From positions 213,685 to 277,684 of the forward strand of contig ARQU01000001.1 of the NCBI GenBank assembly GCA_000384615.1: DNA of 64,000 nucleotides, written 5' to 3'. The translations under genes were made by a program, and so were the position numbers. Of this stretch, positions 4,031 through 30,756 are shown in pieces (within the stretch, counting starts at the first letter, position 1; every line of letters begins with the position of its first letter). This stretch comes from an alpha proteobacterium SCGC AAA536-G10 (GTDB lineage: Bacteria; Pseudomonadota; Alphaproteobacteria; Puniceispirillales; Marisalimonadaceae). The notes under the pieces are model-generated. The model saw nothing but the letters and a program-made list of their open reading frames with translations. It was not told the DNA's origin and did no database searches.

Positions 4031-4039
4031 TTTAATCTC

Positions 4040-4669: not shown

Positions 4670-4687
4670 GTTACGTTATAACATAAC
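4670..4687. promoter_or_regulatory. Putative Zur operator between folE and COG0523 gene
   Basis: The sequence GTTACGTTATAACATAAC is an 18-base inverted repeat with one mismatched pair. It shares the core GTTATAAC with the perfect palindrome at 8628-8647 in front of zur. It sits between divergent genes, 24 bases from folE and 26 bases from the GTPase start, so one repressor could control both. Zur boxes of proteobacteria have this AT-rich ATGTTATANTATAACAT style. The factor assignment is inference from motif and context. Confidence 0.7.
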
Positions 4688-4713
4688 ATACTATTTATAT
4701 TCAGAATTACAAT

Positions 4714-5782: not shown

Positions 5783-5851
5783 AACTAAAATTAATTTAAA
5801 TTATATAAATTTTGATTAACCTATTAATTAATAACATTAAATTTAAAATTT

Positions 5852-6109
5852 CTAACTTTGATTAAGTTTTTCTAGGTCTTCTATACCAATCTCATTAATA
5901 GATTTAGCTAAACGCCAGTTTTTGACAGACCCATCAATAGATCTAGTTGTAATTACAGTCTCTTTAGGAGGGCAATTAGGCTCATGACAATGAAGTTCTG
6001 CAATACTTAAAATTGTACTTTCTGGTAAATTTAATTTCTTAGTAATTTTATTTTTTAAATCTCTAATTACTTCAGGACTTGCATTTTTGCGTTCAAACAT
6101 TCCTACCAT
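5852..6109 (-). CDS. Small uncharacterised protein with Cys/His motif, Zur operon
   Basis: This 85-residue protein has no assigned function that I recognise. Its centre carries HCHEPNCPP (residues 40-48), a cluster of Cys and His that could bind metal, followed by a strand-like segment ETVITTRS. It begins four bases after the stop of the WD40 gene, so it is the last gene of a leftward run zur, COG0523 GTPase, WD40, this protein. A function in handling zinc is plausible from position and the Cys/His motif, but is inference. No ribosome site is clear at the ATG, which suggests translation coupled to the upstream gene. Confidence 0.75.
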   Translation of the reverse strand: MVGMFERKNASPEVIRDLKNKITKKLNLPESTILSIAELHCHEPNCPPKETVITTRSIDGSVKNWRLAKSINEIGIEDLEKLNQS

Positions 6110-6113
6110 CTAA

Positions 6114-7169: not shown

Positions 7170-7202
7170 TATATGCTATTTGGTAGTATATCACTTGAAC
7201 AT

Positions 7203-8174: not shown

Positions 8175-8197
8175 TATTTTTCCTTTCAGGTACTCTA

Positions 8198-8590
8198 TTA
8201 ATTATTTGCACATGCACCACATCGACCGTGAATTTCTAGAACTGGATTATCAGGGATAAAACCAGTTTTTTTAGATAATTTATTTATATTGTTCGTAAAA
8301 TCTTGGTCAAGATGTTCTTTAACATATCCGCAATCATTACATATTTCAAAGACAGGTGTTTTGTCATTGTGAGATCCACAACATACTGTCCATGCATTAA
8401 GAGATTCTATTTTGTGCACTAATCCAATAGTAAGTAATTTGTCTAAAGCTCTGTAAACTGTAGTAGCGGCTGCAACGCCTTCTGACCTCATACCCTCAAG
8501 AATATCATAAGCTGAAAGTGGTTGATCTTTACTTTTTAAATACTGAAATACTCGATCTGCATGAGTTAGACGAGATTTACCTTTTATCAT
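8198..8590 (-). CDS. zur: Fur-family zinc uptake regulator Zur
   Basis: This 130-residue Fur-family protein has an N-terminal winged helix (about 1-70, with [17 protein letters not shown] as the recognition region). A metal-binding dimer domain follows. Two CxxC pairs, Cys84/Cys87 and Cys124/Cys127, form the structural zinc site. Cys71, His74, His93 and His121 are candidate sensing-site ligands, the pattern of Zur rather than iron Fur. With zinc bound it should repress zinc-scarcity genes. It is the first gene of a leftward operon with the COG0523 GTPase, WD40 and small Cys/His genes. A perfect palindrome overlapping its own -10 element implies autoregulation. AAGGG precedes the ATG by about six bases. 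Confidence 0.92.
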
Positions 8591-8627
8591 TTTTTCCCTT
8601 TAATTAAAAAAGTAATTATTCACTTAT

Positions 8628-8647
8628 TGCAATGTTATAACATTGCA
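8628..8647. promoter_or_regulatory. Zur operator, perfect 20-bp palindrome
   Basis: TGCAATGTTATAACATTGCA is its own reverse complement over all 20 bases. It matches the general proteobacterial Zur box style and shares the GTTATAAC core with the site at 4670-4687. It covers the -10 hexamer of the leftward zur promoter and lies nine bases upstream of the -35 of a rightward promoter. A bound repressor would block zur directly and could also affect the rightward gene. Confidence 0.85.
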
Positions 8648-8662
8648 TTATTTTTTTGACAA
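8634..8662 (-). promoter_or_regulatory. Promoter for the zur operon
   Basis: On the minus strand TTGTCA (8662-8657) and TATAAC (8639-8634) are spaced by 17 bases, a good sigma-70 type pair. The -10 element lies inside the Zur palindrome, so zinc-loaded Zur should exclude RNA polymerase. The predicted leader to the zur ATG is about 37 bases. Confidence 0.65.
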
Positions 8663-8683
8663 CACCCTACTAAAGTCTATGTT
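8656..8683 (+). promoter_or_regulatory. Candidate rightward promoter beside the Zur box
   Basis: TTGACA (8656-8661) and TATGTT (8678-8683) are 16 bases apart, with a perfect -35. It would drive the gene at 8816 with a leader of roughly 125 bases. The Zur palindrome ends nine bases upstream of the -35, so control by Zur is possible but less direct than for zur itself. Confidence 0.45.
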
Positions 8684-8815
8684 AAAAATTTTTTTGTTTT
8701 GTTACTAAAAAGAAAATTATAGATATTTTTGTTGATTAATAATATTCATATTATATCTATTAAGCATAATTTTATAAATATATCTTGTAATAAAAATTGA
8801 AAGATAATTAGAAAA

Positions 8816-9286
8816 TTGAAAAATAGTATTTCAAAAGGAGATGTGATTAATGCTCAAAGATTATGGGCAAATCATGTTATTCAAATTGGAGATCTTTATA
8901 CAAATAACGGTGACTACAAGCAAGCCGCATATGACTTTGTTTCTAATTTTTACGCATATGGTTTTAGTAACGTACTTTTCAAACCGACTTTAGCCTCAAA
9001 AAACCAGTTCAGAATAAAATTTGACGATGCTTTATCCTATTTCGTCGGTGGTTCAATAAAAGAAGATAAAGGATTTGCTCTAAAACCATGGAAGAAAATT
9101 CGTTTTGGCGATAGATATTTTATTTTGGAAGATCACACTGCTCTAGTAATGGGCAATTATTATTTTCAAACTAGCAATGTAAGTGAAGAGATTAGAGTTG
9201 AGTATACTTTTGGTTACATTAAGAATGATAACGGAGAATTAATTATAAATCTTCATCATTCTTCATTACCTTATCAAGGAGATTAA
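8816..9286 (+). CDS. SnoaL-like (NTF2-fold) protein of the family often labelled phosphoribosyl-AMP cyclohydrolase
   Basis: The 156 residues resemble a family of secreted SnoaL/NTF2-fold proteins. Characteristic blocks are FKPTLASKNQFR, DDALSYFVGG, EDKGFALKPW, ALVMGNYYF and NLHHSSLPYQ. Many entries of this family carry the name phosphoribosyl-AMP cyclohydrolase, but the true HisI motifs are not present and I would not use that name. The start is TTG; no ATG exists in frame, and a stop lies six codons upstream. Relatives I recall carry a signal peptide, which is missing here. The gene may thus be cytoplasmic, 5'-truncated, or started at a rarer codon. It is divergent from zur across the Zur box, pointing to a zinc-linked role. 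Confidence 0.65.
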   Translation: MKNSISKGDVINAQRLWANHVIQIGDLYTNNGDYKQAAYDFVSNFYAYGFSNVLFKPTLASKNQFRIKFDDALSYFVGGSIKEDKGFALKPWKKIRFGDRYFILEDHTALVMGNYYFQTSNVSEEIRVEYTFGYIKNDNGELIINLHHSSLPYQGD

Positions 9287-9314
9287 ATATAATGGTGATT
9301 TTAGGATTAAAAGA

Positions 9315-9491
9315 ATGAAAAGTCAGAAAAGTCCTTGTATTGATGTGTGTAAATTTACCGGTCAAAATGGTTGGTGCATAGGTTGTGGAAGAACAAGAGA
9401 AGAATGCCAAAAATGGAAAAAAATGAAACCATTCGATGTAAAATCGCTTCAAAAACAGCTAAAAAAAAGAATGTTAATAATTGCAAACTGA
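9315..9491 (+). CDS. DUF1289 small cysteine protein
   Basis: This 58-residue protein starts at the ATG at 9315 with AGGA eight bases upstream. Four cysteines in the pattern SPCIDVCKF and GWCIGCGRTREECQKW (Cys8, 12, 21, 24) are the hallmark of DUF1289, whose members are short, probably metal-binding and of unknown function. A fifth cysteine follows at position 31. It lies 28 bases downstream of the SnoaL-like gene on the same strand and may be co-transcribed. The short length means it is easily missed, but the motif match is strong. Confidence 0.85.
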   Translation: MKSQKSPCIDVCKFTGQNGWCIGCGRTREECQKWKKMKPFDVKSLQKQLKKRMLIIAN

Positions 9492-9619
9492 ATTAAATTT
9501 TCTAGTTTCTATTTCTATTACATAGTTAATGTTATATTTTTTAAAACTATTTAATTTAAAAAATTACTTTTATATAAAATCAATGTAATGATTTATTTAT
9601 ATAAATTAAGGAAAAAGAA

Positions 9620-10540
9620 TTGTCAGAAATAATTTCAGTTAAAAATTTAGTTAAGAAATATGACAATGATTTTATTGCAGTTAAAAATTTAAGTCTGAAA
9701 ATTAACCAAGGTGAAATAATCGCCCTCCTGGGTCCTAATGGAGCGGGTAAAACCACTCTCATTTCTACAATATGTGGTCTTGCATCAATAACATCTGGGA
9801 GTATCACAGTAAATGGATTTGACGTGATTAAGGATTACAGAAAAACAAGAGAGATTATTGGGCTTGTACCTCAGGAATTAGCACTGGAACCTTTTGAAAA
9901 AGTCATTAACTCAGTTAAATTTTCTAGGCGATTATTTGGTAAAAAAGATGATGTTGAATATGTTGAAAATCTTTTAAAGAAATTACAACTATATGACAAA
10001 AAAGACAATATCATTAAATCTCTTTCTGGGGGAATGAAACGTCGAGTAATGATAGCCAAGGCCTTAAGTCACAACCCTAAGATCTTATTTCTTGACGAGC
10101 CTACAGCAGGAGTTGACGTTGAATTACGTAAAGATATGTGGAACATTATAAAAGAATTGAAAAATGAAGGTGTTACAATAATTTTAACTACTCACTATAT
10201 TGAAGAAGCTGAAATGATAGCGGATAATATAGGTATAATAAACCATGGGGAATTACTACTAGTTGAAGAAAAGAACAAACTTATAAAAAGAATGAGCGTT
10301 AAAACACTTAAAGTAAAACTGAAAAAATCACTTTCAACAATCCCCACTAAACTTAAAAAATATAATCTGAAGCTGATTGATGAGGGCAATTCATTTCACT
10401 ATTACTATAATACAGGAAAAGAAAGAACGGGTATAACTTCCCTACTCTCAGACATGAATCAAATTGGTATTAATTTATTTGACATTCAAACAGAAGAAAC
10501 ATCATTAGAAGATATTTTTGTAAAAATTATTAAGGACTAA
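9620..10540 (+). CDS. ABC-2 type transporter, ATP-binding protein
   Basis: This 306-residue ATPase has Walker A GPNGAGKTT, Q-loop VPQE, signature LSGGMKRR, Walker B ILFLDEPTAGVD and the switch histidine in TTHYIEEAE. It belongs to the DrrA/NodI/YadG group. A C-terminal extension of about 90 residues follows the nucleotide domain, as in that group. The start is TTG with AAGGAAAAAG just upstream. The permease gene follows three bases after the stop. The pair should form an exporter of unknown substrate at the inner membrane; drugs, polysaccharides or lipids are typical for the family. Confidence 0.92.
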   Translation: MSEIISVKNLVKKYDNDFIAVKNLSLKINQGEIIALLGPNGAGKTTLISTICGLASITSGSITVNGFDVIKDYRKTREIIGLVPQELALEPFEKVINSVKFSRRLFGKKDDVEYVENLLKKLQLYDKKDNIIKSLSGGMKRRVMIAKALSHNPKILFLDEPTAGVDVELRKDMWNIIKELKNEGVTIILTTHYIEEAEMIADNIGIINHGELLLVEEKNKLIKRMSVKTLKVKLKKSLSTIPTKLKKYNLKLIDEGNSFHYYYNTGKERTGITSLLSDMNQIGINLFDIQTEETSLEDIFVKIIKD

Positions 10541-10543
10541 TCA

Positions 10544-11305
10544 ATGAACCTGCGAGGAATACAAGCAATCTATATATACGAGATGAATAGATCCTTTAGG
10601 ACTCTAATTCAAAGTCTTGTCTCTCCGGTTTTATCAACAATACTTTATTTTATTGTTTTTGGCGCTGCCATTGGTTCAAGAATGGAAAATATTAGCAATG
10701 TAACTTATGGCGCATTTATTGTTCCAGGATTAATAATGTTAACTGTTCAAATGCAAAGTGTAAATAATGCTTCTTTTGGTATTTATTTTCCAAAATTTAT
10801 TGGAACTACTTATGAACTTTTGTCAGCACCATTATCATTTGTTGAAATAGTGATTGGTTATGTAGGGGCGGCAACAACTAAATCATTCTCAATAGGCTTA
10901 ATAATATTAGCAACATCTTATCTATTTGTTACCATTGATATTGTACACCCAATTTTTATGTTATTTTTTTTATTGTTAACGTGTATTAGTTTTAGCCTTC
11001 TTGGTTTTATTATTGGTATTGTATCAGATAATTTTGAGCAACTAAACATAGCTCCAATGTTAATAATTACTCCTTTAGTTTTTTTAGGTGGAAGTTTTTA
11101 TACAATAGATATGTTACCTCCTTTCTGGCAAAACTTTGCTTTATTAAATCCTATAGTTTATTTAATATCTGGCTTTAGATGGGCTTTTTTTGGTATTGGT
11201 GATGTGCCAATACTAACAAGTATTTTTTTTATACTGTTGTTCACTAGCATATGTATTAGTATAATTTGGTACATTTTTAAAACTGGATATAGAATAAAAA
11301 GCTAA
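10544..11305 (+). CDS. ABC-2 type transporter permease
   Basis: This 253-residue protein has six hydrophobic segments and the ABC-2 family signature in the region FLGGSFYTIDMLPPFW, near residue 180, followed by NPIVYLISGFRW. It is close to the YadH/NodJ branch. It starts three bases after the partner ATPase gene, with AAGGA eight bases upstream of its ATG, so the two are clearly one transcription and functional unit. Dimers of each protein would make the exporter. The substrate is unknown. Confidence 0.92.
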   Translation: MNLRGIQAIYIYEMNRSFRTLIQSLVSPVLSTILYFIVFGAAIGSRMENISNVTYGAFIVPGLIMLTVQMQSVNNASFGIYFPKFIGTTYELLSAPLSFVEIVIGYVGAATTKSFSIGLIILATSYLFVTIDIVHPIFMLFFLLLTCISFSLLGFIIGIVSDNFEQLNIAPMLIITPLVFLGGSFYTIDMLPPFWQNFALLNPIVYLISGFRWAFFGIGDVPILTSIFFILLFTSICISIIWYIFKTGYRIKS

Positions 11306-11350
11306 TTCAATTAATATATATTTTTTTAACTAAAAATTTAGAGGTTAGTA

Positions 11351-11995
11351 ATGAAGTTATATACTTTCACCCCTGCAGCAAACGCACTTAGAGTTGAAAT
11401 GTTCCTAAAAGAGAAAAAAATAGATATAGAAACCATTCAAGTCAATGTTAGAGAAGATGAAATATTTAAAGAACCATATAAAACAATGAACCCGTTTAAT
11501 TGTGTTCCATTTTTGGAATTAGAAGATGGTACAATTATTTCTGAAACAATATCAATTTGTCGTTATTTAGAAGATAAATTTGAAAATCCAAATTTATTTG
11601 GAAGTAATAGTAAGGAGATAGCTATTATTGATATGTGGAACAGAAGAATAGAATTGGATGGATTTTTACCTCTCTTACATTCTGTAAGAAATAAAACATC
11701 TTTTTTCAAGGGAAAAGTAGTTCCTGGCACGCGGAACGAAATTGATCAATCGCCTGAAATTGTTGTTCGTGGAATTGAAATGTTTAAAATTTTTCTAAGT
11801 AGGGTTGAGCCATATCTTTCAAAGAATAAGTTTATTGCTGGAGAAAAATTTACTATTGCAGACATAACAGCACATTTTATGTTTAATTTATCAAAAATCT
11901 TAAAAATTGATCTTGAAGATGAATACAAAAATGTTTTTAGATGGAAATCAGAACTTGAAGATAGGCCATCAAATCCAATTAATAACCTAATCTGA
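11351..11995 (+). CDS. Glutathione S-transferase family protein
   Basis: This 214-residue protein has the thioredoxin-like half with the cis-Pro loop NCVPFLELEDG and the glutathione contact ISETISICRYLE. The helical half contains the conserved FTIADITAHFMF motif. It differs from the GST at 2987 in length and class: the N-terminal TPAANALRVEM has no clear catalytic Tyr or Ser, like some theta/beta-like bacterial GSTs. AGAGG precedes the ATG. It lies 20 bases ahead of an SDR dehydrogenase on the same strand, so the two may work on one substrate. Confidence 0.88.
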   Translation: MKLYTFTPAANALRVEMFLKEKKIDIETIQVNVREDEIFKEPYKTMNPFNCVPFLELEDGTIISETISICRYLEDKFENPNLFGSNSKEIAIIDMWNRRIELDGFLPLLHSVRNKTSFFKGKVVPGTRNEIDQSPEIVVRGIEMFKIFLSRVEPYLSKNKFIAGEKFTIADITAHFMFNLSKILKIDLEDEYKNVFRWKSELEDRPSNPINNLI

Positions 11996-12015
11996 TAAAC
12001 TGAGTATACACAAAC

Positions 12016-12777
12016 ATGAATGAAGATAGTACAAAGTTAGCCATAGTTACGGGAGCGGCTAGAGGGATTGGGCTAGCTACAGCTCTTATGTTTAATGAAA
12101 ATGGTTATAAAGTTGCAATAGTTGATAATGATAAGAAAGAGATTGATAACTTATCTTTCACAAATGAAAATTTAAAAACATTTTGTTTTGATATTTCAAA
12201 TGTTGATGAATTAGAGAAAATGTATAGTCAAATATTAGAGTGGCATAATAGAATTGATATATTAGTTAATAATGCAGGTGTAGCTGATTTTGGTCATATC
12301 GAGGAAACCAATTTCAAGAGATGGAATGAGGTTATGAAAACAAATTTAGATGGTGTTTTTTTATGCTCCCAAAAAGCAATATCGCATCTAAAAAAAACAA
12401 AAGGAAATATAATTAATATTGCGTCTATATCTGGTTTACGTGCATCAACCCTTAGAGTAGCTTATGGAACCTCAAAGGCAGCTGTTATTCAACTAACTAA
12501 ACAACAGGCTGCTGAATTAGGGGAATTTGGTATAAGAGTAAATTGTATTGCACCAGGTCCAGTAAAAACAAAACTAGCAATGGCAGTCCATACCCAAGAT
12601 ATTATTGAAGCTTATCATGATGCAATTCCACTTAATAGATATGGTACTGAACAAGAAATTGCGAATGGTATTTATTTTTTAGCATCTGAAAAAGCTTCAT
12701 ATATTACTGGACAAGTCCTTGCAGTAGATGGTGGATTTGAAGCTACTGGTGTTGGGCTTCCTTCTTTAAGAAAATAG
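12016..12777 (+). CDS. SDR family oxidoreductase
   Basis: This classical short-chain dehydrogenase has 253 residues. The cofactor motif TGAARGIG lies near the N-terminus with Asp37-type acceptor VDND, suggesting NAD preference. NNAG follows, then Ser of IASISG and the YGTSKAA catalytic Tyr/Lys. The C-terminus ITGQVLAVDGGF is typical of FabG-like enzymes. It would oxidise an alcohol or reduce a ketone with NAD(H). It follows the GST gene by 20 bases and precedes the subtilisin-like gene by six, so the three may share a transcript. The substrate is unknown. Confidence 0.9.
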   Translation: MNEDSTKLAIVTGAARGIGLATALMFNENGYKVAIVDNDKKEIDNLSFTNENLKTFCFDISNVDELEKMYSQILEWHNRIDILVNNAGVADFGHIEETNFKRWNEVMKTNLDGVFLCSQKAISHLKKTKGNIINIASISGLRASTLRVAYGTSKAAVIQLTKQQAAELGEFGIRVNCIAPGPVKTKLAMAVHTQDIIEAYHDAIPLNRYGTEQEIANGIYFLASEKASYITGQVLAVDGGFEATGVGLPSLRK

Positions 12778-12783
12778 TTAATT

Positions 12784-14037
12784 ATGAAAGAAATTAATTT
12801 TCTAATACTATTTTTATTCTCAACAATGTTGTTAATTGGCAAATCTTTTAGTTCCACAGAAAATGATGAGTTTATAAGATTAAAAGAAACTCATAATATT
12901 ATATGTAAAAATATAACTTTATCTAATGTAAAAGAAATAGTGAATAATTGGAAATTACAAAAAAAAAATAAATATTTACAATTATTTGCCAATAAAAATG
13001 AACAAAAAACTTTACAAATTAGACCTTTATACAGAGCAAACCAAATCCAAAAGATTATATTTACTTTTTATAAAATTCCAAAGAGACCAATTTTAGAAAT
13101 TAGATCAAATAAAAATTGTAATATACAAAGTATAAGAAAAATAATTTACAATAAAAATTTCATACCTCAAGAGATACATTCAATTAATATTTCTGATTAC
13201 AAGATAGATAATACAAAATTGTTAAATCCAAAATTACCTAAACTAAAATCAAATAATGACAAGAATATAATCGCTTTAGTTGATACGGGTATAAATTATA
13301 GTTTGAAAATACTTCATAAAAACATTGCTGTTAAAGATAGACAAATTTTAGGTTTTGATTTTTGGGATAATGATAACAAACCTTTTGACAGTGATCCTAG
13401 GCAAAGTCCTTTTTACCCAAGACACCATGGAACTACAGTATTTAGTATTTTAGCTAATGATGCCCCAAACTCTCCAATTGCACCATATAGATTTCCAGCT
13501 CTAGATATGTGTAAATTTAAAGAATTAGTTGAACACATTGTTGAAAACTCAATTAGAGTAGTTAATTTATCAATGGGATCTACGAAGTTACAAGATTGGG
13601 AGTGTTTTGAGAAAGTGGCTAGTAAATACAAGGATATCATCTTTGTTGTATCTGCAGGCAATAATGGATTTAATATTGATGAAAATCCAATTTACCCAGC
13701 TTCTCTAAATTTGAAAAATATCCTTGCTGTTACTTCGTCAGATAAAAGTGGAAGATTGGGACGTGGTTCGAATTACGGACAAAATTCTGTAGACTTCATA
13801 CTGCCTGCAGAACGCCTACAAGTATTTGATCATAGAGGAGTGAAAGCTTTTACAGGTGGTACAAGTTATGCGGCCCCGAGATTAACTGCTTTAATTTCAA
13901 GATATATTGAAAAAAATCCTAATTGTACAAATGATGAAATATATGATTTTCTTAAAAAAAGAGCTATTCAAAAAGGAAAAAAAATTACTAAGTATGGCTG
14001 GATACCTGATCCCTTAGATGATTATTTAATTAATTAG
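12784..14037 (+). CDS. Subtilisin-like (S8) serine protease, exported
   Basis: This 417-residue protein begins with a signal peptide (hydrophobic FLILFLFSTMLLIG, cleavage near residue 23). A lysine-rich N-terminal region of about 130 residues follows, probably a propeptide. The S8 triad is complete: Asp167 (ALVDTGI), His215 (RHHGT) and Ser361 (GGTSYAAP); the oxyanion Asn lies in SAGNNG. It should act in the periplasm or outside the cell. Its stop overlaps the end of the convergent S1 protease gene by eight bases. Two exported proteases of different clans end to end suggests shared purpose, such as peptide scavenging or protein quality control, but that is inference. Confidence 0.9.
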   Translation: MKEINFLILFLFSTMLLIGKSFSSTENDEFIRLKETHNIICKNITLSNVKEIVNNWKLQKKNKYLQLFANKNEQKTLQIRPLYRANQIQKIIFTFYKIPKRPILEIRSNKNCNIQSIRKIIYNKNFIPQEIHSINISDYKIDNTKLLNPKLPKLKSNNDKNIIALVDTGINYSLKILHKNIAVKDRQILGFDFWDNDNKPFDSDPRQSPFYPRHHGTTVFSILANDAPNSPIAPYRFPALDMCKFKELVEHIVENSIRVVNLSMGSTKLQDWECFEKVASKYKDIIFVVSAGNNGFNIDENPIYPASLNLKNILAVTSSDKSGRLGRGSNYGQNSVDFILPAERLQVFDHRGVKAFTGGTSYAAPRLTALISRYIEKNPNCTNDEIYDFLKKRAIQKGKKITKYGWIPDPLDDYLIN

Positions 14038-17120: not shown

Positions 17121-18683
17121 ATGGATGATGTAAGACCATTTATCTATCCTGGCGATAATGGATCAAAATTAATGCCAGTGTCTAGATATGAAAATTTTAT
17201 TGGTGGTGAATGGACAAAACCAAAATCGGGGAATTATTTTGAAAATATTTCTCCAACAAGCGGAAAAATAATTTGTGAAGTTCCTAGATCAAATGCTGAT
17301 GATATTAATTTAGCATTAGACGCTGCTCATAAAGCTGCAGGCTCGTGGGGTAAAACTGGACCTGCAGAAAGAGCAAATATATTACTTAAAATTGCTGATA
17401 CGATTGAACAAAATGCAGAAAAATTGTCTCTAGCCGAAACTTTAGATAATGGTAAACCAATAAGAGAACCTATGGCAGCAGATATACCTCTAACTGTTGA
17501 TCATTTTAGATATTTTGCTGGAGCAATTAGAGCTCAAGAAGGTTCAATTGGAAATATAGACGGAATGCAATCAGGTGGAGGTAATTCTGCGCAAGGAATG
17601 ATGGCATATCATTATCCAGAACCTTTAGGAGTAGTTGGACAAATTATACCTTGGAATTTCCCAATTTTAATGGCTGCTTGGAAACTTGCTCCTGCATTGG
17701 CTGCTGGGAACTGTGTGGTATTAAAGCCCGCAGAACAAACACCTTTTTCAATTTGTATATTGATGGAGTTAATAGGTAATTTATTACCTGCTGGAGTTGT
17801 AAATGTTGTTCAAGGATATGGAGTTGAAGCTGGTAAACCGTTAGCATCAAGTAATCGTATTAATAAAATAGGATTTACAGGTGAAACAACAACGGGTAAA
17901 TTAATAATGCAATATGCATCTGAAAATCTTATACCCGTCACACTCGAACTAGGTGGTAAAAGTCCGAATATATTTTTTAAAGATATAATGAACGGCGGAG
18001 ATGAATATTTGTCTAGATGTGTAGAAGGTTTTCTTCACGCTTATTTTAATCAAGGCGAAGTTTGTACTTGTCCATCAAGAGCAGTTATTCATGAAGATAT
18101 ATATGAACCATTTATGGAAATGGTAAAAACAAGAGTATCAGCATTGAACTGTGGTGATCCTTTTGATTTAAATACTCAAGTCGGCGCTCAAGCTTCGTCT
18201 GAACAGTATGATAAAATTATGTCATATCTTGACGTTGGTAAACAAGAAGGTGCAAGCGTCCTTTTTGGAGGAGAAAAACGTCAAATGAATGGTAACTACT
18301 CTAATGGATACTATGTAGAACCAACTGCATTTAAAGGAAATAATTCTATGAGAATTTTTCAAGAAGAAATTTTCGGTCCTGTTGTTTCAGTAACAACATT
18401 TAAAGATGAATCAGAGGCTGTCTCAATAGCTAATGATACTTTATATGGATTAGGTGCAGGTGTTTGGTCAAAGGATTCTAACATTTGTTACCGAATGGGA
18501 AGAGCTATCCAAGCAGGTAGAGTGTGGGTTAATTGTTATCATTCATACCCAGCACATGCAGCATTCGGTGGTTATAAAAATTCAGGAATTGGACGAGAAA
18601 CTCATAAAATGATGCTTAACCATTATCAGCAAACGAAAAATGTGTTGGTTTCTTATTCAGAAATACCAGATGGATTTTTCTAA
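17121..18683 (+). CDS. Aldehyde dehydrogenase (acetaldehyde-type)
   Basis: This 520-residue NAD(P)-dependent aldehyde dehydrogenase has the cofactor-site [18 protein letters not shown] stretch, general base Glu in [10 protein letters not shown] and nucleophile Cys in [10 protein letters not shown]. The C-terminal [13 protein letters not shown] is also present. It is of the type that oxidises acetaldehyde or other short aldehydes to acids in alcohol catabolism. The next gene encodes DUF779, the usual neighbour of this subgroup, which strengthens the assignment. A strong promoter lies upstream and a 10-bp stem-loop lies just after the stop. Confidence 0.93.
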
Positions 18684-18693
18684 AATAATATAT

Positions 18694-18717
18694 AATCCTC
18701 CCTTACCAGGGAGGATT
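18694..18717 (+). terminator. Stem-loop between aldehyde dehydrogenase and DUF779 genes
   Basis: A perfect 10-bp stem, AATCCTCCCT paired with AGGGAGGATT, encloses the loop TACC and is followed by ATTTT. It starts 10 bases after the dehydrogenase stop and ends six bases before the GGAG of the DUF779 ribosome site. It may act as a partial terminator or protect the 3' end of the upstream message, so that the dehydrogenase is made in excess. Confidence 0.65.
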
Positions 18718-18732
18718 ATTTTGGAGTTTTAA

Positions 18733-19149
18733 ATGATACAAAGAGTATTATCTACAGATAAAACAAATAAACTGATAAATGAACTTTCTAATATACATGG
18801 ATTATTGGTTTTTCATCAATCTGGTGGTTGCTGTGATGGTTCATCACCTATGTGTTTTCCAAGATCAGAATTTAAAGTTGGCTCTAGGGATATTTACTTA
18901 GGAGATATTTGCAACCAACCTTTTTTTATGTCTGAAGACCAATTTTCTTACTGGAAACATACTCAATTAATAATAGATGTAGTGCCAGGAAAAGGTGGTA
19001 TGTTCTCACTTGAAGGACCCTCTGGAAACAGATTTTTGACAAGATCAAGAGTATATGAAGAAAAAGAAATTAGTTTACTTAAAAACAACCCACCTCAATG
19101 CGCATCAGAACTAAAAGATATTAAAGGTTTACAAACAACAATAAATTAA
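18733..19149 (+). CDS. DUF779 family protein
   Basis: This 138-residue protein is recognised by HQSGGCCDGSSPMCF near the N-terminus and DVVPGKGGMFSLEGPSG towards the C-terminus, both conserved in DUF779. Members are almost always encoded beside acetaldehyde or similar aldehyde dehydrogenases, as here, and their biochemical role is unknown. The three closely spaced cysteines could bind metal or be redox active. It is preceded by GGAG at a good distance and separated from the dehydrogenase gene by a stem-loop. Confidence 0.88.
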   Translation: MIQRVLSTDKTNKLINELSNIHGLLVFHQSGGCCDGSSPMCFPRSEFKVGSRDIYLGDICNQPFFMSEDQFSYWKHTQLIIDVVPGKGGMFSLEGPSGNRFLTRSRVYEEKEISLLKNNPPQCASELKDIKGLQTTIN

Positions 19150-21249: not shown

Positions 21250-22242
21250 TTATTTTATAACCTTAAGTATATCCACACCTAAAATTTTCCAGAAATATAA
21301 TAAATCAATGAATACCCAATTTTCTGATAATTTATTACCATCTCTTCTATACATGTCTATTATTCTCATCTCAGAGGATTTTGGAGTAGCTGTGATACCC
21401 ATAAATATTTTACTAGGAGTTAATGTCAAATTAGGCCAACCAAAGAAACCACCATAATTACCCTCTGTAATACGGCAAAGATGTCCATTAAATTTTCTTT
21501 CTTTAAAAACTTGCCTAAAAGGGCTGGCATGTTGATCTGCATATCTATTTATTGTGTAAGTTGAACCAATTCCAGTTGGTCCCCACCAAATCATATTATC
21601 GTTCCAACTTTTTTTAAGCTCTTCAATTAATGAAATTCCAGTCGTACTTTTCCAAACTTTCACGTCATTAATCATATTTTCAATAATTTCTAATGTTCTA
21701 TTTCCTTCATTAGGATCTTGTTTATTAAACATTAAACCGTCATGTGTTAAAGGGCCCGGTTGAACCAAACTAATTCCAGTTTCGCTCGGGAAAGCTTTTA
21801 TTCCTGCTTGAAGCATTAGATGAGGTATATCAAAGAACATTGCTACTTCAGAAATTTTACCATTTTGTATTTTACTAAATTCACAGTAACGTAACATAGC
21901 AATTTTTTTGGTTTCTTTTATACCAATCCAAGGATTATCAAACAAACCCATTAAATGTCCCATTGAAACAACCCAAACACCCTCATTGCCAGATATTACA
22001 TTATATCCAGCTAAAAAGATGTCCATCCGTCTTTGATAATTAAAAAAACTTTTTTTAAATGGTTGCCAGAATTGAGAGTATAATTTTTCTATTCCACTTA
22101 TTTCGTTAAAAGGATGAAAACCACGCCATAATATATCTTCTGAACAATAATTAGATAAGACTTTTGGAATTTCGTCAATTTTACTAGCTTCAAGTGCATT
22201 ATAAAAATTGAGGACTACTTGTTTTTCTGATTGAAAATTCAA
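21250..22242 (-). CDS. Double SnoaL-like (NTF2-fold) domain protein
   Basis: This 330-residue protein consists of two SnoaL-like halves. Residues 1-160 begin FNYQRRMDIFLAGY-type strands after a helical start with VVLNFYNALEASK. The second half runs from about 190 to 330 and contains LIEELKKSWNDNMIWWGP. Both end in a FFDIPHLMLQAGI or FIDLLYFWKILGV-like segment, showing an internal duplication. SnoaL domains include polyketide cyclases, ester cyclases and hydrolases. The start is TTG with weak upstream signal; no ATG lies nearby. It is the last gene of the nine-gene operon, 22 bases after the MetE-like gene. The function is unknown. Confidence 0.75.
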   Translation of the reverse strand: MNFQSEKQVVLNFYNALEASKIDEIPKVLSNYCSEDILWRGFHPFNEISGIEKLYSQFWQPFKKSFFNYQRRMDIFLAGYNVISGNEGVWVVSMGHLMGLFDNPWIGIKETKKIAMLRYCEFSKIQNGKISEVAMFFDIPHLMLQAGIKAFPSETGISLVQPGPLTHDGLMFNKQDPNEGNRTLEIIENMINDVKVWKSTTGISLIEELKKSWNDNMIWWGPTGIGSTYTINRYADQHASPFRQVFKERKFNGHLCRITEGNYGGFFGWPNLTLTPSKIFMGITATPKSSEMRIIDMYRRDGNKLSENWVFIDLLYFWKILGVDILKVIK

Positions 22243-22264: not shown

Positions 22265-23386
22265 TTATTTAACTTTACTTGCACCTTCAACTAAGGATTG
22301 TAGTTTTAAATAAGCAATATCTGGATCCACATTACCAAAACCTGCAAACGTTCCAAACCCACAATCTGTACCTGCTATCACTCTATCTTTTCCAACAATA
22401 TTGACAAACTTCTCAATCCTTTGTCTTACTAAAGAACTATGTTCAACAAAATTACTAGTAGTATCAAGAACTCCAGGGATGAGTATTTTGTTTTCAGGTA
22501 TTTTGTTTTTTAATTTTTCAAAAATTTCCCACTCATGTTGATGTCTGGGATTTGATGACTCAAAAAGTAGGTAATTACCCTTAAATGACATCAAGACGTC
22601 AAAAATCAGTTCAATAGATATATCGTGTATGTGTGGACCCTCATAATTCCCCCAACAAACATGAAGTCTCAACATTTCTGATGGAATATTTTTAAGGCTT
22701 TGATTGAGTATTTCCATATTTTCATAAGCAATTTTTATAAAATCTTTATCACTCTCACTTTTAAAAGTCATATGTCTAGATAAAGCTAAATCAGGGCAAT
22801 CTAACTGCAGTTTAATTCCAGAATTGACAATTGTCTCATATTCATCTTGCATAGCTGATGCAATTGCATCTAAATATTCATTTCTATTTGAATAATATGA
22901 ATTGCTAAGAAACAGAGATATCACTCCAGGGGAAGCTGCATTCATAAAGATTTTATTATGATTAAACTTTTTTGATGCCCTTAAAAGATTTTTAATATCA
23001 TTAGTTAAATCATTATTCTTTTTTGAAGAAATTTCTGCAACGCAGCAAGGCCGTGAATAAGTCGGTGTACCACCACTATCCGCAATTTTTTTCATATAAT
23101 TTGGAAACTTTTCTAAATCTTGTGGTGGATTCCTCTCACTATCACCAGCAAAGCCATTATACCTATCTTTCACATAAGTTGCATAAGATATTTTAGACAT
23201 TTCACCATCTGAAATTATATCAACGCCAACATCTAATTGTTTTTTTACAACTTCTTTTACACTCTTTGATATTACCTCTTCAAAATATTGCTGATTATAC
23301 TCCTCTTCCTTTTCTCTTTTAAAGAGTAAATCAGAAACCATCTTAGGTCTTGGAAGAGAACCTACATGTGTTGTTAAAATGGTCAT
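22265..23386 (-). CDS. Core-MetE-like zinc methyl/alkyl transferase
   Basis: This 373-residue protein matches only the catalytic C-terminal half of cobalamin-independent methionine synthase. It begins with the family motif HVGSLPRP. All four expected zinc ligands are present: His242 and Cys244 (LHVCWG), Glu276 (LLFESS) and Cys342 (GTDCGFG). Stand-alone proteins of this type include core methionine synthases and epoxyalkane:coenzyme M transferase, which activate a thiolate at zinc. It sits inside a catabolic operon with a sugar-type importer, cupin and SnoaL proteins. Transfer of a methyl or alkyl group from the imported compound to a thiol is therefore as likely as methionine synthesis. AAGGA precedes the ATG. 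Confidence 0.82.
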   Translation of the reverse strand: MTILTTHVGSLPRPKMVSDLLFKREKEEEYNQQYFEEVISKSVKEVVKKQLDVGVDIISDGEMSKISYATYVKDRYNGFAGDSERNPPQDLEKFPNYMKKIADSGGTPTYSRPCCVAEISSKKNNDLTNDIKNLLRASKKFNHNKIFMNAASPGVISLFLSNSYYSNRNEYLDAIASAMQDEYETIVNSGIKLQLDCPDLALSRHMTFKSESDKDFIKIAYENMEILNQSLKNIPSEMLRLHVCWGNYEGPHIHDISIELIFDVLMSFKGNYLLFESSNPRHQHEWEIFEKLKNKIPENKILIPGVLDTTSNFVEHSSLVRQRIEKFVNIVGKDRVIAGTDCGFGTFAGFGNVDPDIAYLKLQSLVEGASKVK

Positions 23387-25850: not shown

Positions 25851-26741
25851 CTAACCTTTCACGGCACCTTGAGTTAAACCACTTACTAATTTAGTTTGAA
25901 AAAACATTATTAATATGAAAAGTGGTACAGTAGCAGAAACTACAGCCGCAACTGCGAACATAACATTTCCTTCAGTATAAGTTGTACCTAAAAAAGCAGC
26001 TATCTTTGGTATCATTGTTCTATTTTCATCAGATAAAAGCATAGAAGTAACTGCAAAATCATTATAAGCTAACAAAAAACTAAATAGTCCAGTAGTAATT
26101 ATTCCTGGCCACATGACAGGTACAATTACATGTCCAAAAGCTTGGTATTGTGAACAACCATCGACTTTAGCGCTCTCATCAAGTTCCTTCGGTATATTTT
26201 GAAAGAATGAATGTAACATCCACAAAGTAAATGGTTGGTTTATAGAAACTAACACTATGATTGTTGTCGGCAGAGTGCCCCATAGATTCCATTCAAAAAA
26301 AGGTGGAAGATAACCAGCAACAAGCGTAATTGGAGGCATTGCTCTGAAAATAAGTGCCATTATTAAAAGCCAAAATGTATATTTAAAATTTGATCGTGAA
26401 AGTGCGTATGCGCCAAGAGTACCTATTGTCAGTGAAGTAATCACGACAAAAAAACAGACTAAAGATGTGTTTATGAAAGCTTTCCAAAATTCTTCTTGAA
26501 CCCAAGCACCGTGGTATCCAATAAAAGTGAAAGGAGAACCATAAGTTTGTTCTGTATTTTTCCCAGTAATAGCATTAGTCCAATTTGATATTGAAAAAAA
26601 ATCTAATTCAACTTTGAAAGATCCCCAAAAAGTCCAAATAAAAGGAAAAGCAGCTACAAAAACCCATAAAAATATCAGGAAATAAATTATTATTGCCGTA
26701 AAGGAACTGTTTTTAGTACTTTTATTAGAATTAAAAATCAT
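25851..26741 (-). CDS. Carbohydrate-type ABC transporter permease (MalG/UgpE-like)
   Basis: This 296-residue inner-membrane protein has six transmembrane segments. The EAA loop is ELDESAKVDGCSQYQAFGHV followed by PVMWPG, which docks with the ATPase. It belongs to the MalG family. It overlaps the other permease gene by four bases (ATGA), showing coupled translation and paired assembly. With the MalF-like protein, binding protein and MalK-like ATPase of the same operon it forms an importer for a carbohydrate-like or related solute. Confidence 0.93.
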   Translation of the reverse strand: MIFNSNKSTKNSSFTAIIIYFLIFLWVFVAAFPFIWTFWGSFKVELDFFSISNWTNAITGKNTEQTYGSPFTFIGYHGAWVQEEFWKAFINTSLVCFFVVITSLTIGTLGAYALSRSNFKYTFWLLIMALIFRAMPPITLVAGYLPPFFEWNLWGTLPTTIIVLVSINQPFTLWMLHSFFQNIPKELDESAKVDGCSQYQAFGHVIVPVMWPGIITTGLFSFLLAYNDFAVTSMLLSDENRTMIPKIAAFLGTTYTEGNVMFAVAAVVSATVPLFILIMFFQTKLVSGLTQGAVKG

Positions 26742-27763
26742 TTTTTAAACTCAAATTCTTTCCATGTTTTTATTAAAACAGGTGAAAGTAAGATTATAAT
26801 ACCAAAAATAGTTAGTATAGAAGAAGTTGCTGCAGCAGATAACTGTCTTGTTTCACCTCCAAGATCGTTAAAAATAATCCAGCTCAATGAGGTTGCGTGA
26901 GCTTCTGCATTAAACCCAACGATTGGTTCAAATACTCTAAAATTATCCATTAGCTGCATTAATGTTACAAACGTAATTAGTGGCATTATGTGTGGTATAA
27001 TTATGTGTATGGTTTGTTGGAAAGTATTTGCACCGTCAATTTGGGCGGATTCTATTTGATCTTTTGGAAGGGTCTGTAATCCTGCATAAAAAACAATGAA
27101 TGAAAAAGGAATTGCATGCCATACCCCGTAAACAATTAACATTATCCAAGTTAAGAATGTAGATGCTTTAAGAGATAAACCTGGGTCTTCAAACAATATT
27201 TGTAAAAAGTTTCCTACAATTCCCCTACTATCTATCATCCAAAATAGTATTATCGAACCTATTAATGGCGTAACTATCATTGGTAGAAGAGAAAAGAAAA
27301 TAATTAACCCTTTTAATTTTTGATTAAATGAATCCACTCCTAAGGCAATTAATAGTCCGAGAACAAGCATTATTGGAGTAACTGTGAATGTGAAAGTCAA
27401 AGTGAAAAATAAGGCTTTATAAAATGGTAAATCAGCAGTTAATTTTAAAAATTCCAAAAAATTATTTGTATTTGACCATAAATTTTTGACCTGTTCAATT
27501 GCTAAATGACCCCTATCAAAATAAATGTCTAAACCAACATATTTGCCTAACGGGTTATTTTTTTTTAATTTTTGTGTAGCTTCATGATTTATAGAGGTAG
27601 CCTTTTTACAACCAAAAGGATCGCAGTTTTCTACGGTTATTAGAACATTTTCATGAGGGGTGTGAAATGATTGTATTGTAACAGAAATAATTGGCAATGT
27701 TATAAAGAAAAACATTGCCAAGAATGTTGGAAGTATAAACCAAAAGAAAGTTTTATGTTTCAT
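26738..27763 (-). CDS. Carbohydrate-type ABC transporter permease (MalF/UgpA-like)
   Basis: This 341-residue permease has an N-terminal membrane segment, a periplasmic segment of about 85 residues and then five further segments. The EAA loop IESAQIDGANTFQQ and HIIIPHIMP contact the ATPase. The periplasmic segment contains two nearby cysteines (NCDPFGCKK), which may form a disulfide. A nine-base-pair stem-loop ends eight bases before its ATG, just after the binding-protein gene, and probably lowers its expression relative to the binding protein. Confidence 0.92.
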   Translation of the reverse strand: MKHKTFFWFILPTFLAMFFFITLPIISVTIQSFHTPHENVLITVENCDPFGCKKATSINHEATQKLKKNNPLGKYVGLDIYFDRGHLAIEQVKNLWSNTNNFLEFLKLTADLPFYKALFFTLTFTFTVTPIMLVLGLLIALGVDSFNQKLKGLIIFFSLLPMIVTPLIGSIILFWMIDSRGIVGNFLQILFEDPGLSLKASTFLTWIMLIVYGVWHAIPFSFIVFYAGLQTLPKDQIESAQIDGANTFQQTIHIIIPHIMPLITFVTLMQLMDNFRVFEPIVGFNAEAHATSLSWIIFNDLGGETRQLSAAATSSILTIFGIIILLSPVLIKTWKEFEFKK

Positions 27764-27802: not shown

Positions 27803-29029
27803 TTATAAAAAACCTTTTTCTTTTGCAGAAGCTCTGTAAGCATCTTCTATGTCAGACAAAGTCTTTTTTGCTGATTCTTTACCTTGCATGAAATCGGATA
27901 TTTCTTTTCCGATTGCTGAATGCATTAATCCTGCATATGGTAACATTGGATAAGGAGTAGTGCTCATTTTTGCTGCTGCAAAAACACCTTTAGCTGCTTC
28001 TGTCGGCTTATAACCATCAATTAACCATACAGCTTGCTTTCTTATGTCATCTTTATCCATTATTGAAGGTCTAATAGCATTAGTCATTGCAATAAAAGTA
28101 GCTTCTGCTTCTTTATCACTTATTTTTTTAGCTATAGTCCAACCATCCCAAAACAATGTTGAAGCAGGAGTTTTACCTCCACCAACTGTCATAGGTCCAG
28201 CTATATCCATGCCATTTTTAACTTCATCACTAACACCATCAACATCTACCAATGTAGCAGCTCTACTACCCCACATATTCATAATAGCGACGTTTCCAGC
28301 TCTAAACTCAGCATTTGTAGCGTTACTATCATGGGTTAGAAAATCTGGATTCATATAACCAGACAAAGCTTTCATCATTTCAAGAGCTTTTACGCCAGAT
28401 TCAGAATTTACATTTGGTTCTGCAGTGTTGCCTTTAAAATGTGATCCTCCATAACCTATAAACATATTATTAAACTCTTGTGCTAAATTCCAGCCAGCTT
28501 TATAAGCTCCACCAACAGGATTTTTTAAAAGACCTGCGTCTCTTATTTTTTTTGCTGCAGATAACATTTCTTCATAGGTCTTTGGAACATCGATATTTAG
28601 TTTTTTCAAAATATCTTTTCTATAAACGAGATGTTGTGCATTAGCCATAAATGCTACTGCCATTATCTTACCATCAATGGTAATAAGTTGGTTCTTTTTC
28701 AAATCTTTACCATGTTTTTTAACTAAACTATCTAACGGTCTTATAAGATCTTCATTAAGCAATGCAACAATTGAAGTATTGGCGACTATAGCTGAGGTAT
28801 ATTCAGCCGGCTCACTACTCATACCTGCAACGTTAATTTTTTGATGATCTGCAGTTAAATTTGCTGATACTTTAGCTCCTTTACATTCTTTTGCACCAGA
28901 TCCAACTGTTTGAATTGCAGGAAACTCATTTCCAACAATACTAACTCTAGCAGAAATACTACATGCGAATGCGCTTGTAGATGTCAAAAAAATAATTGAA
29001 GATAAAATTTTTATTAAAAATAGTTTCAT
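27803..29029 (-). CDS. ABC transporter substrate-binding protein, family 1
   Basis: This 408-residue periplasmic binding protein has a cleavable signal peptide ending FLTSTSAFA before residue 23. It has the extracellular solute-binding family 1 layout, with PKTYEEMLSAAKKIRDAG and NVAIMNMWGSRA as typical lobes. The family binds oligosaccharides, glycerol phosphates and other polyols. The first mature residues contain two cysteines close to the cleavage site, but a lipobox is not evident. AAGGAG precedes the ATG. It lies between the ATPase and permease genes in the nine-gene operon. The ligand is unknown. Confidence 0.9.
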   Translation of the reverse strand: MKLFLIKILSSIIFLTSTSAFACSISARVSIVGNEFPAIQTVGSGAKECKGAKVSANLTADHQKINVAGMSSEPAEYTSAIVANTSIVALLNEDLIRPLDSLVKKHGKDLKKNQLITIDGKIMAVAFMANAQHLVYRKDILKKLNIDVPKTYEEMLSAAKKIRDAGLLKNPVGGAYKAGWNLAQEFNNMFIGYGGSHFKGNTAEPNVNSESGVKALEMMKALSGYMNPDFLTHDSNATNAEFRAGNVAIMNMWGSRAATLVDVDGVSDEVKNGMDIAGPMTVGGGKTPASTLFWDGWTIAKKISDKEAEATFIAMTNAIRPSIMDKDDIRKQAVWLIDGYKPTEAAKGVFAAAKMSTTPYPMLPYAGLMHSAIGKEISDFMQGKESAKKTLSDIEDAYRASAKEKGFL

Positions 29030-29042: not shown

Positions 29043-30092
29043 TTAACTTAAATTAAAACCAGTTTTATTATCAAAAATCTGACACTTTGAAGACAAAATT
29101 GATATACTAACAACATCTCCTAGAGATGCATTAAAAGTATTACTCATTTTTACTGAAATAAAATTTTCTTCTATTTTCACTGTTACCATGGTCGCATCAC
29201 CTAAAAGCTCTATTGAAAAGATTGGTCCTTTAATATTTCCAGAAATACTCTTGATTATTTTACCATCTTCTGCACGAAATCCAAGCTTATATTTTCCATT
29301 TTTATGATTAAAATTTTCAATTTTTATATCTTTTGCAATAAAATCATTGTCCTTGATATTACCATTAATTAAATTCATAGGTGGGTTACCTATGAACGAA
29401 GCAACAAATGTATTTATAGGCTTGTCATAAATTTGTTTTGGTGTCCCAATTTGTTGAATAACACCCTTATTCATAACAACAACTCTATCAGCTAAAGTCA
29501 TTGCTTCAATTTGATCATGAGTTACATATATTGTAGTTATTTGAAGTTGGTTTTGTAAGTGTTTAATCTGCCCTCTAGTCGAAACTCTCAATTTAGCATC
29601 AAGGTTGGATAAAGGTTCATCCATTAAAAAAACATTAGGTTTTCTTACTAAAGCTCTTGCTAATGCAACTCTCTGTTTTTGTCCCCCAGATAGTTCAGCT
29701 GGTTTTCTGTGGCAAAAATCATTTAATTCAACTAAATTGATAGCCTCCATAACTAAATTATTCTGGTTTTCTCTAGGTACTTTTCTTATTTTTAGAGGAA
29801 ATCTAACATTTTCGTATACAGTCATATTTGGATATAAACCGTATGATTGAAATACCATAGAAATATCTCTGTCTTTAGGTTCTAAATCATTTACAATTTT
29901 ATTATCAATTTTGATAATTCCATCTGTTAAATCCTCTAACCCAGCTATCATTCTCATTGTAGTGGTTTTACCACATCCAGAAGGGCCTAATAACACTAAA
30001 AACTCTTTATCCTTAATTATTAAATTAAAATCAATTACAGCATTGAAATCACCCCAACTTTTTGACACTTTAATTAGTTCAATCTCTGCCAT
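29043..30092 (-). CDS. ABC transporter ATP-binding protein (MalK/UgpC-like)
   Basis: This 349-residue ATPase has Walker A GPSGCGKTT, Q-loop FQSYGLYP, signature LSGGQKQR, Walker B NVFLMDEPLSNLD and the switch His in YVTHDQIEAM. A C-terminal TOBE/regulatory domain of about 110 residues follows, as in the MalK group. It powers the importer formed with the two permeases. It starts 10 bases after the HAD-like gene and ends 13 bases before the binding-protein gene, firmly inside the operon. Confidence 0.93.
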   Translation of the reverse strand: MAEIELIKVSKSWGDFNAVIDFNLIIKDKEFLVLLGPSGCGKTTTMRMIAGLEDLTDGIIKIDNKIVNDLEPKDRDISMVFQSYGLYPNMTVYENVRFPLKIRKVPRENQNNLVMEAINLVELNDFCHRKPAELSGGQKQRVALARALVRKPNVFLMDEPLSNLDAKLRVSTRGQIKHLQNQLQITTIYVTHDQIEAMTLADRVVVMNKGVIQQIGTPKQIYDKPINTFVASFIGNPPMNLINGNIKDNDFIAKDIKIENFNHKNGKYKLGFRAEDGKIIKSISGNIKGPIFSIELLGDATMVTVKIEENFISVKMSNTFNASLGDVVSISILSSKCQIFDNKTGFNLS

Positions 30093-30102: not shown

Positions 30103-30756
30103 TTACCCTTCTTCAAAAAATGATTTTACAGATTTGAATATATCTTTGCTTATTAAAGAGCTTTCTTCATAAGTTGTATATTCACCCGGGTATAAAAGCG
30201 TCTGTATATTTGCATTCATTGCAGAACGACAGTTTTCTATAGTATTCTCAACTGCTAATGAATTTGAATGCATTACATCTAGTTTTTTTAATGCAAATTT
30301 ATAAATTTCAGGATCAGGTTTTCTTTTAGAAACAAGCTCATCATGGGTAATTAAGTCAAATTTTGAAAAATCAACCTGTTTTGATAAATTATTGATTACT
30401 AAATCTAGAGTATCCTTATTTGTAGTTGTAATAAAACCAATTTTAATATTATGAATCGACACATATTCAATAACTTCTAAAACTCCAGCCCTTGGTTTTA
30501 AATTTTTTTTCGATAATAATTTGAAATGTTTAATTTTTAATAAATGTATTTGTTTAGCATCATCTAAATTCAATTTATTTTTTGAAAATTCAATCAAACG
30601 ATTTAAACCACCAGGTTTTTCAAGCATTTTTATGTAATTAGCAACGTTCCAATACCAGTCAATACCAAATTCTTTAAAAGCTGCATTAAAAGCTTTCCTT
30701 TGAATTTCAGAACTTTCAACAATAGAACCAATAGAACCAAATAATAAAGACTTCAT
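30103..30756 (-). CDS. HAD-like protein with degenerate active site
   Basis: This 217-residue protein aligns end to end with HAD subfamily IA (CbbY/phosphoglucomutase-like) phosphatases, with the cap helices after EIQRKAFNAAFKEFGIDW. The catalytic motif I, normally FDxDGT, reads FGSIGS, so both aspartates (positions 7 and 9) are lost. Motif II keeps Thr near 110 (GFITTTNK) and motif III keeps Lys146 (KRKPDPE). Motif IV reads VENT, with Asn171 for the expected Asp. It is unlikely to be a phosphatase and may bind a ligand or regulate. It is the first gene of the nine-gene operon. The DNA reading at 30739-30721 confirms the changes. Confidence 0.83.
   Translation of the reverse strand: MKSLLFGSIGSIVESSEIQRKAFNAAFKEFGIDWYWNVANYIKMLEKPGGLNRLIEFSKNKLNLDDAKQIHLLKIKHFKLLSKKNLKPRAGVLEVIEYVSIHNIKIGFITTTNKDTLDLVINNLSKQVDFSKFDLITHDELVSKRKPDPEIYKFALKKLDVMHSNSLAVENTIENCRSAMNANIQTLLYPGEYTTYEESSLISKDIFKSVKSFFEEG

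Follow-up and report, generated by a model that had tools for sequence, protein, structure and literature searches.

The window, i.e. the whole stretch of 64,000 nucleotides that was analysed, belongs to a genome of 2.16 Mb in 148 contigs which is 90% complete. Positions 22265-23386 form a single frame of 373 amino acids on the minus strand, from ATG to stop, referred to below as the METE-like gene; on the plus strand, frame 1 is interrupted there by many stops, and the coding strand, which an earlier note on this DNA had omitted, is the minus one. The closest relatives of the gene (13 loci, 84-97% identity) are SAR116 records and its host is a SAR116 bacterium.

Against Pfam, the protein gave 59.9 bits with Meth_synt_2 (PF01717, cut-off 21), and this was the sole domain above its cut-off. 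Since Meth_synt_1, the N-terminal folate-binding half, gave no match above the Pfam cut-off, only the catalytic half of MetE is present, as the earlier note had read from the sequence. The zinc ligands which it had named, His242, Cys244, Glu276 and Cys342, align exactly to H641, C643, E665 and C726 of Escherichia coli MetE. Among the 63 homologues (query counted) His242, Cys244 and Glu276 were kept in 62 each and Cys342 in all. The Ser, Glu and Asp which bind homocysteine in MetE, according to the available text of PMC7857596, are likewise conserved (Ser10 in 62, Glu62 in 63 and Asp196 in 62 of the 63). The sole true substitution at these seven positions was an Asn in place of Ser10, the remaining misses being gaps. 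The predicted structure was poor (mean pLDDT 55.8, from an alignment of 13 sequences with 84-100% identity), and the five best PDB matches of this model, all of them MetE, therefore carry little weight.

Table 1. Genes of the nine-gene cluster, in cluster order, and codons of the zinc and homocysteine residues, in window positions. Zinc-ligand codons were counted from the start codon at 23386.
Feature	Position	Strand	Evidence or remark
Putative HAD-like hydrolase, 217 aa, first cluster gene	30103..30756	-	relatives have homologues in this position
UgpC/MalK-type ABC ATPase	29043..30092	-	NF008653, 422.9 bits (cut-off 432)
Solute-binding protein (SBP_bac_1)	27803..29029	-	
Sugar-type ABC importer permease	26738..27763	-	best NCBIfam match UgpA, below cut-off
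Sugar-type ABC importer permease	25851..26741	-	best NCBIfam match MalG, below cut-off
SnoaL fusion protein, 487 aa	24372..25835	-	SnoaL, 114 bits
Bicupin-type protein, 320 aa	23393..24355	-	Cupin_2
METE-like gene, 373 aa	22265..23386	-	catalytic domain of MetE alone (PF01717); all zinc and homocysteine residues kept
SnoaL-like protein, 330 aa, last cluster gene	21250..22242	-	two matched stretches
His242 and Cys244 (HVC), zinc ligands, codons 242-244	22655..22663	-	aligned to MetE H641/C643
Glu276, zinc ligand	22559..22561	-	aligned to MetE E665
Cys342, zinc ligand	22361..22363	-	aligned to MetE C726
Ser10 (MetE Ser433, homocysteine carboxylate)	23357..23359	-	alignment; role from available text of PMC7857596
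Glu62 (MetE Glu484, homocysteine amino group)	23201..23203	-	alignment; role from available text of PMC7857596
Asp196 (MetE Asp599, homocysteine amino group)	22799..22801	-	alignment; role from available text of PMC7857596

The METE-like gene is number eight of nine minus-strand genes with intergenic spacings of -4 to 39 bases (Table 1). A promoter and terminator scan gave 44 and 5 sites, respectively, compared with 52.7 and 4.0 in shuffled sequences; as these numbers were not informative, the operon status rests on spacing and conservation. The 487-aa SnoaL protein is regarded as a fusion, because its successive parts are matched by two separate SnoaL proteins from L079, a Roseobacter-type operon with the gene order of the named ones described below. 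The earlier note had pointed to importer and catabolic-type surroundings in place of methionine genes, which is borne out by the content of the cluster, and had suggested that a methyl or alkyl group of the imported compound might be moved to homocysteine, glutathione or another thiol. PDB sequence searches with the cupin, the solute-binding protein, the SnoaL protein and the RraA-like protein indicated no substrate. No known demethylase was found among the operon genes, and this counts against a methyl transfer. Near the operon, on the plus strand of the window (17121-19149), an ExaC-type aldehyde dehydrogenase and a DUF779 protein are encoded; in several relatives the same flanking genes enclose another pair, of about 65% and 50% identity and in inverted orientation.

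Conservation and distribution of the operon

The METE-like and the bicupin genes were each found in 69 of the 136 genomes of the SAR116 order. They occurred together in 68 genomes and apart in one each way, and neither was found in 66. In one genome (G105) the sequence on the cupin side of the METE-like gene runs for 47 bases before the contig stops. In another (L162 in G045:C13, about 3300-10500) the HAD-like gene, the importer and the cupin are kept, no match to the 487-aa SnoaL protein was found, and the METE-like gene is represented by residues 3-24 following the cupin. This stub of 22 residues is apparently a natural loss, and the importer and cupin persisting beside it count against a catabolic methyl transfer. 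A METE-like copy with an internal TAG stop was also observed (L036, G056:C9:20110-21222). In the genus of the window the gene was present in 15 of 40 genomes, many of them incomplete, and with this patchy distribution it looks like an accessory trait. In a sample of 299 genomes of the phylum, a match at E 1e-20 was obtained for 20 (own genome counted).

Operon genes were counted by six-frame searches, longest-frame gene calls being unreliable in G+C-rich loci; only the same strand was considered and the identity threshold for each gene was set by us. The counts cover 45 loci with 53.5% identity or more, 14 of which belong to the window's genus, and 14 loci under 48%. In the first set, 41 loci have a cupin no more than 2.5 kb away from the METE-like gene, and SnoaL2b was found in 43, PermB in 37, LacI in 26 and HisD-like in 20, while at the thresholds used none of these five appeared in any of the 14 more distant loci. 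The importer counts are lower bounds, as some of the stretches stop short of the importer. The METE-like gene travels with the importer and the cupin and not with methionine genes; the cupin counts in the two sets thus uphold the earlier view of a catabolic-type rather than a methionine operon. The four loci without a nearby cupin are counted against the catabolic methyl transfer.

The operon is also carried by named Roseobacter plasmids, in Ruegeria conchae, Octadecabacter arcticus and Marinovum algicola. There it comprises the importer, ester cyclases, a hisD-like gene, an SDR (without annotation in Marinovum), a LacI-type regulator, the cupin, the METE-like gene, an alpha/beta hydrolase and RraA.

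The HisD-like protein of the L079 operon is nearest in the PDB to HpsN, the DHPS 3-dehydrogenase (1e-109). In the six proteins examined its motif is GK(F/Y)PM, which differs from GRY(A/S)H of HpsN and also from GSAPL of HisD (PMC11382572), and GKYPM/GKFPM marks, at the level of the motif, a putative third HisD/HpsN subtype. In the window's genome an HpsN-like dehydrogenase (70% identical to the L079 one) and an SDR (48%) are encoded outside the operon, at L154 8476-10556 (G000:C1, about 153975-156055). The genes near this pair look like those of a putative TRAP transporter. HpsN-like dehydrogenases occur in genomes without the METE-like gene as well; this, together with the position of the pair outside the window operon, counts against the methyl transfer. 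DHPS catabolism was set aside as the purpose of the operon, as the motif differs and the gene pair is located elsewhere in the window's genome.

Methionine synthesis in the host and the Phaeobacter orthologue

The MetH activation domain was found in none of the 136 genomes of the order, while 7 of 14 control genomes were positive. For the corrinoid cap (PF02607), the 58 genomes in the window's family gave no match, compared with 65 positive genomes among the 78 in the rest of the order, many of the genomes counted being incomplete; outside the family it was present in 38 of the 46 genomes bearing the METE-like gene. B12-dependent methionine synthesis has apparently been lost in the window's family, and the METE-like protein seems to have no corrinoid methionine-synthase partner there. 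Since no corrinoid protein of methionine synthesis was found in the family, a B12 or corrinoid methyl donor is unlikely in it.

The METE-like protein is the only PF01717 protein found in its own genome. Three genomes of the family which do not carry the METE-like gene (G009, G022 and G049) have a different PF01717 protein, as if the two were interchangeable. This is counted against the catabolic methyl transfer and favours an accessory methionine synthase, i.e. a cobalamin- and folate-independent enzyme of a fifth Mes-like family, which would use a general methyl donor and would merely be housed in a nutrient operon. The zinc and homocysteine residues, all intact, are in agreement with such an enzyme, and it would be useful where the MetH activation domain, the corrinoid cap (in the family) and other PF01717 proteins (in its own genome) are absent. 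However, proteins of the homocysteine S-methyltransferase type (PF02574) were found in 118 of the 136 genomes of the order, including 60 of the 69 carriers of the METE-like gene, and in the window's genome too, the METE-like gene is missing from 25 of the 40 genomes of the genus (many incomplete), and its companions are the importer and the cupin instead of methionine genes. The PF02574 protein of the window's genome, below the NCBIfam cut-offs, is nearest in the PDB to MmuM by a small margin, followed by 5-methyltetrahydrofolate S-homocysteine methyltransferase. The same genome encodes an MTHFR-family reductase and, away from the operon, a protein resembling DmdA (371 bits, cut-off 410).

Published work on Phaeobacter bears on the same alternative. 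A 'mes-like' gene of Phaeobacter inhibens, PGA1_c27430, and its deletion mutant are described in the accessible part of PMC12366255. Matches to the primers given there were sought, with up to three mismatches, in our loci numbered 69 and up. The upstream deletion primer of PGA1_c27430 (Ala-Phe-Ile-Asp-Ala-His) matches the cupin gene in 10 loci with 0-3 mismatches, 1-2 kb upstream of the METE-like gene, an eleventh match (L088) lying elsewhere, and the downstream deletion primer matches the RraA gene of the METE-like operon in four loci with 2-3 mismatches. Primers 12, 13 and 15 gave no match with up to three mismatches in these loci, and primer 16, which matched L072 and the unrelated L150 and L151, was excluded. 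As the published primers match the cupin and RraA genes of the operon, PGA1_c27430 can be taken, within the primer data accessible in that source, as the orthologue by position.

In the portions available of PMC12366255 and PMC12478193, a METE-like gene or its kind is counted among the possible B12-free methionine synthases of marine bacteria; the latter calls the function of the core-MetE homologues of aerobic marine bacteria questionable, and considers that they are perhaps made only under cobalamin limitation. The accessory synthase, a role thus considered in print, is further favoured by the residual growth which the delta-bmt mutant of Phaeobacter is reported to show when methionine is left out (PMC12366255, available text). 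On the other hand, methionine is supplied in Phaeobacter by the three-part MetH, the mutants of which are rescued by methionine (PMC5764234) and need it also according to PMC12478193, as far as the accessible sections of both go; the orthologue, though present, is no replacement for the methionine synthase in these mutants. Taken together, we consider the accessory synthase unlikely.

In the delta-mes-like mutant the shortening of the lag by DMSP persists (PMC12366255, accessible part), and DMSP is accordingly unsupported as the methyl donor. Since this independence of the DMSP lag is all that the single published mutant shows in the text available, it is also counted against the methyl transfer.

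Family placement and sister clades

None of the NCBIfam equivalogs of methionine synthase (PRK04326, PRK06233, PRK00957, PRK09121, PRK05222, PRK01207 and TIGR01371) scored above its cut-off with the METE-like protein. The best of them was PRK04326 (106.2 bits, cut-off 406), and PRK00957 and TIGR01371 gave 67.3 bits (258) and 46.9 bits (930), respectively. A quick maximum-likelihood tree of 71 proteins has long outgroup branches. It leaves out 15 of the 63 homologues (14 near-duplicates and one fragment), and its references include six of the eight MesD proteins and eight chosen other PF01717 proteins from the order. EtnE of Nocardioides JS614, which carries the annotation 'methionine synthase II family protein', was taken by us as the epoxyalkane:CoM transferase (EaCoMT), and this reference was retrieved beside its alkene-oxidation neighbours.

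The operon clade is one group of 38 rows (SH-aLRT 95) inside a group of 54 rows, which stands apart from MesD, E. coli MetE, EaCoMT and the other PF01717 proteins (SH-aLRT 100). The six MesX-neighbouring MesD proteins form a clade of their own (SH-aLRT 100). EaCoMT lies on a long branch outside the 54-row group, and its joining beside that group may be a long-branch artefact. A distant PF01717 protein from a Paracoccus versutus plasmid (L116, 4001-5044) groups with no reference family in this tree. By tree, residues and curated cut-offs, the predicted protein is not a MetE, a MesD or an EaCoMT, MesA, MesB and MesC being outside the tree. The earlier note had suggested a phylogeny against MetE, MesA-D and EaCoMT; for MetE, MesD and EaCoMT the comparison holds, and the protein falls into no established family among those sampled, while MesA, MesB and MesC, which come from methanogens and other anaerobes (PMC7857596, available text), are not part of it.

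As the Ser/Glu/Asp set is kept, compared with Asn for Ser10 and Lys for Glu62 in the one EaCoMT sequence used, homocysteine is favoured among the thiols proposed earlier, and on this basis the acceptor would more likely be homocysteine than CoM. The same residues bear on a further explanation, in which the protein would form thiol adducts in the manner of EaCoMT, the zinc thiolate of homocysteine or a similar compound attacking an electrophilic carbon (epoxide or enone), or would catalyse the reverse. EaCoMT provides a catabolic precedent in the MetE fold, cyclases and hydroxylases occur among the SnoaL-fold proteins, and the quick tree, with its possible long-branch join beside the METE-like family, leaves the nearest group of EaCoMT unsettled. 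However, the differences at the two thiol-site residues, the position of EaCoMT outside the 54-row group and the lack of annotated alkene or epoxide genes in the named Roseobacter operons speak against it, and make it slightly less likely than the accessory synthase. Membership of the EaCoMT family itself was ruled out by the thiol-site residues and the position outside the 54-row group. A zinc protein which transfers no methyl group, e.g. a regulator or binding protein of the operon, has a non-enzymatic precedent in the MesB-like proteins of Chloroflexales, but these do not have the zinc residues (PMC7857596, available text), and with all seven residues kept in 62 or 63 of the 63 METE-like homologues this explanation is very improbable.

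Five proteins of the tree make up the nearest paralogue clade. Around four of them, one on a Sphingobium sp. RAC03 plasmid (L113) and three in a single alphaproteobacterial family (L090, L091 and L093), a DesA/LigM-type O-demethylase is encoded at most about 7 kb away, accompanied by an IclR regulator and a PcaD-like hydrolase. The O-demethylases of three of the four scored 824.6-834.9 bits (NCBIfam cut-off 800), and that of L090 is 66% identical to one of the three scanned. In L090 and L113 the adjoining gene encodes a SnoaL-type protein, while in L091 such a protein is about 4 kb off and in L093 only at the edge of the stretch; in Sphingobium, the METE-like relative is downstream of a p-hydroxycinnamoyl-CoA hydratase/lyase gene. 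Next to the fifth member (L077, from the SAR116 order) there is a SnoaL-like reading, and at a distance of about 5 kb one that resembles GcvT/DmdA (25-31% identity). In the subclade of L092, L094 and L095 (around 3000-13400) a second PF01717 gene is found in tandem, with glyoxalase-type and CoA-transferase-like genes, and L096 has the latter genes without the tandem PF01717; the two different MetE-core proteins in tandem in these alphaproteobacteria represent a separate cluster. From these neighbourhoods it appears that the wider family recurs in breakdown-type clusters, one branch of it in a methoxy-aromatic cluster. If the DesA-type enzymes of the sister clusters already transfer the O-methyl groups to folate, the METE-like protein there may have another job, which is counted against the methyl transfer.

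Proposed function and comparison with known systems

The explanation we tentatively prefer, as a possible rather than a probable one, is that the METE-like protein would be a catabolic zinc methyltransferase, a subfamily of the MetE core, by which homocysteine receives the methyl group of a methylated compound taken up by the importer, or of an intermediate of it. The importer would take up a methylated, polyhydroxylated compound of sugar-like or carbocyclic nature. By analogy with MetE chemistry, zinc would activate homocysteine as a thiolate nucleophile. The compound, or a product of its early breakdown, would donate its methyl group directly to this thiolate, resulting in methionine and the demethylated compound. 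The imported compound or its intermediate is suggested as the donor by the gene context. The SnoaL proteins and the cupin would process the remainder, in the Roseobacters also with the HpsN-like dehydrogenase, the SDR, the hydrolase and RraA. The nature of the donor is the weakest step of this model: an O-methyl group (enol or aryl ether) is most likely, since there are O-demethylases in the neighbourhood of the sister-clade genes and the importer is of sugar type. It is somewhat doubtful whether the more specific form of the proposal holds, in which a corrinoid- and folate-free zinc enzyme would demethylate an imported methoxylated marine metabolite directly onto homocysteine and so act as a catabolic methionine synthase of abundant ocean bacteria. 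As a guess, the substrate could be a vinylogous methyl ether, such as the gadusol or mycosporine ring, which fits the chemistry and the gene set.

The conserved operon suggests that the METE-like protein has a role in the breakdown of one specific nutrient and not in B12-free methionine synthesis. If the catabolic methyl transfer is true, it would be a new direct route from the methyl groups of plankton metabolites to methionine in SAR116 and Roseobacter cells, and a zinc-based alternative to the folate- and B12-dependent demethylases. The function of a marine importer could then also be tested, in a strain of which a mutant is already available.

In the open-licence literature searched no description of the operon was found. 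The locus tags PGA1_c2739 to c2744 were found in PMC12366255 alone, and the available portions of PMC9007349 and PMC10130141 contain nothing on the operon. The protein type and the knockout of the orthologue are already in print, while the link to the operon and the residue argument appear to be new within the literature searched. In the accessible text of PMC12366255, PGA1_c27430 is treated as a possible core methionine synthase and the operon is not described.

Of the known systems, E. coli MetE shares with the METE-like protein the catalytic domain and all seven residues, but the N-terminal folate-binding half is present only in MetE. MesD is more similar in its architecture, being also a stand-alone catalytic half of MetE with the HCEC zinc set and the Ser/Glu/Asp homocysteine set (PMC7857596, available text); it differs by its separate clade in the tree, and its companion MesX (PF08908) was not found in the host genome of the METE-like gene. 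EaCoMT differs at the two thiol-site residues in the one sequence compared and is only 23.5% identical, but like the METE-like protein it is a stand-alone catalytic half of MetE with the same zinc ligands, encoded in a catabolic cluster.
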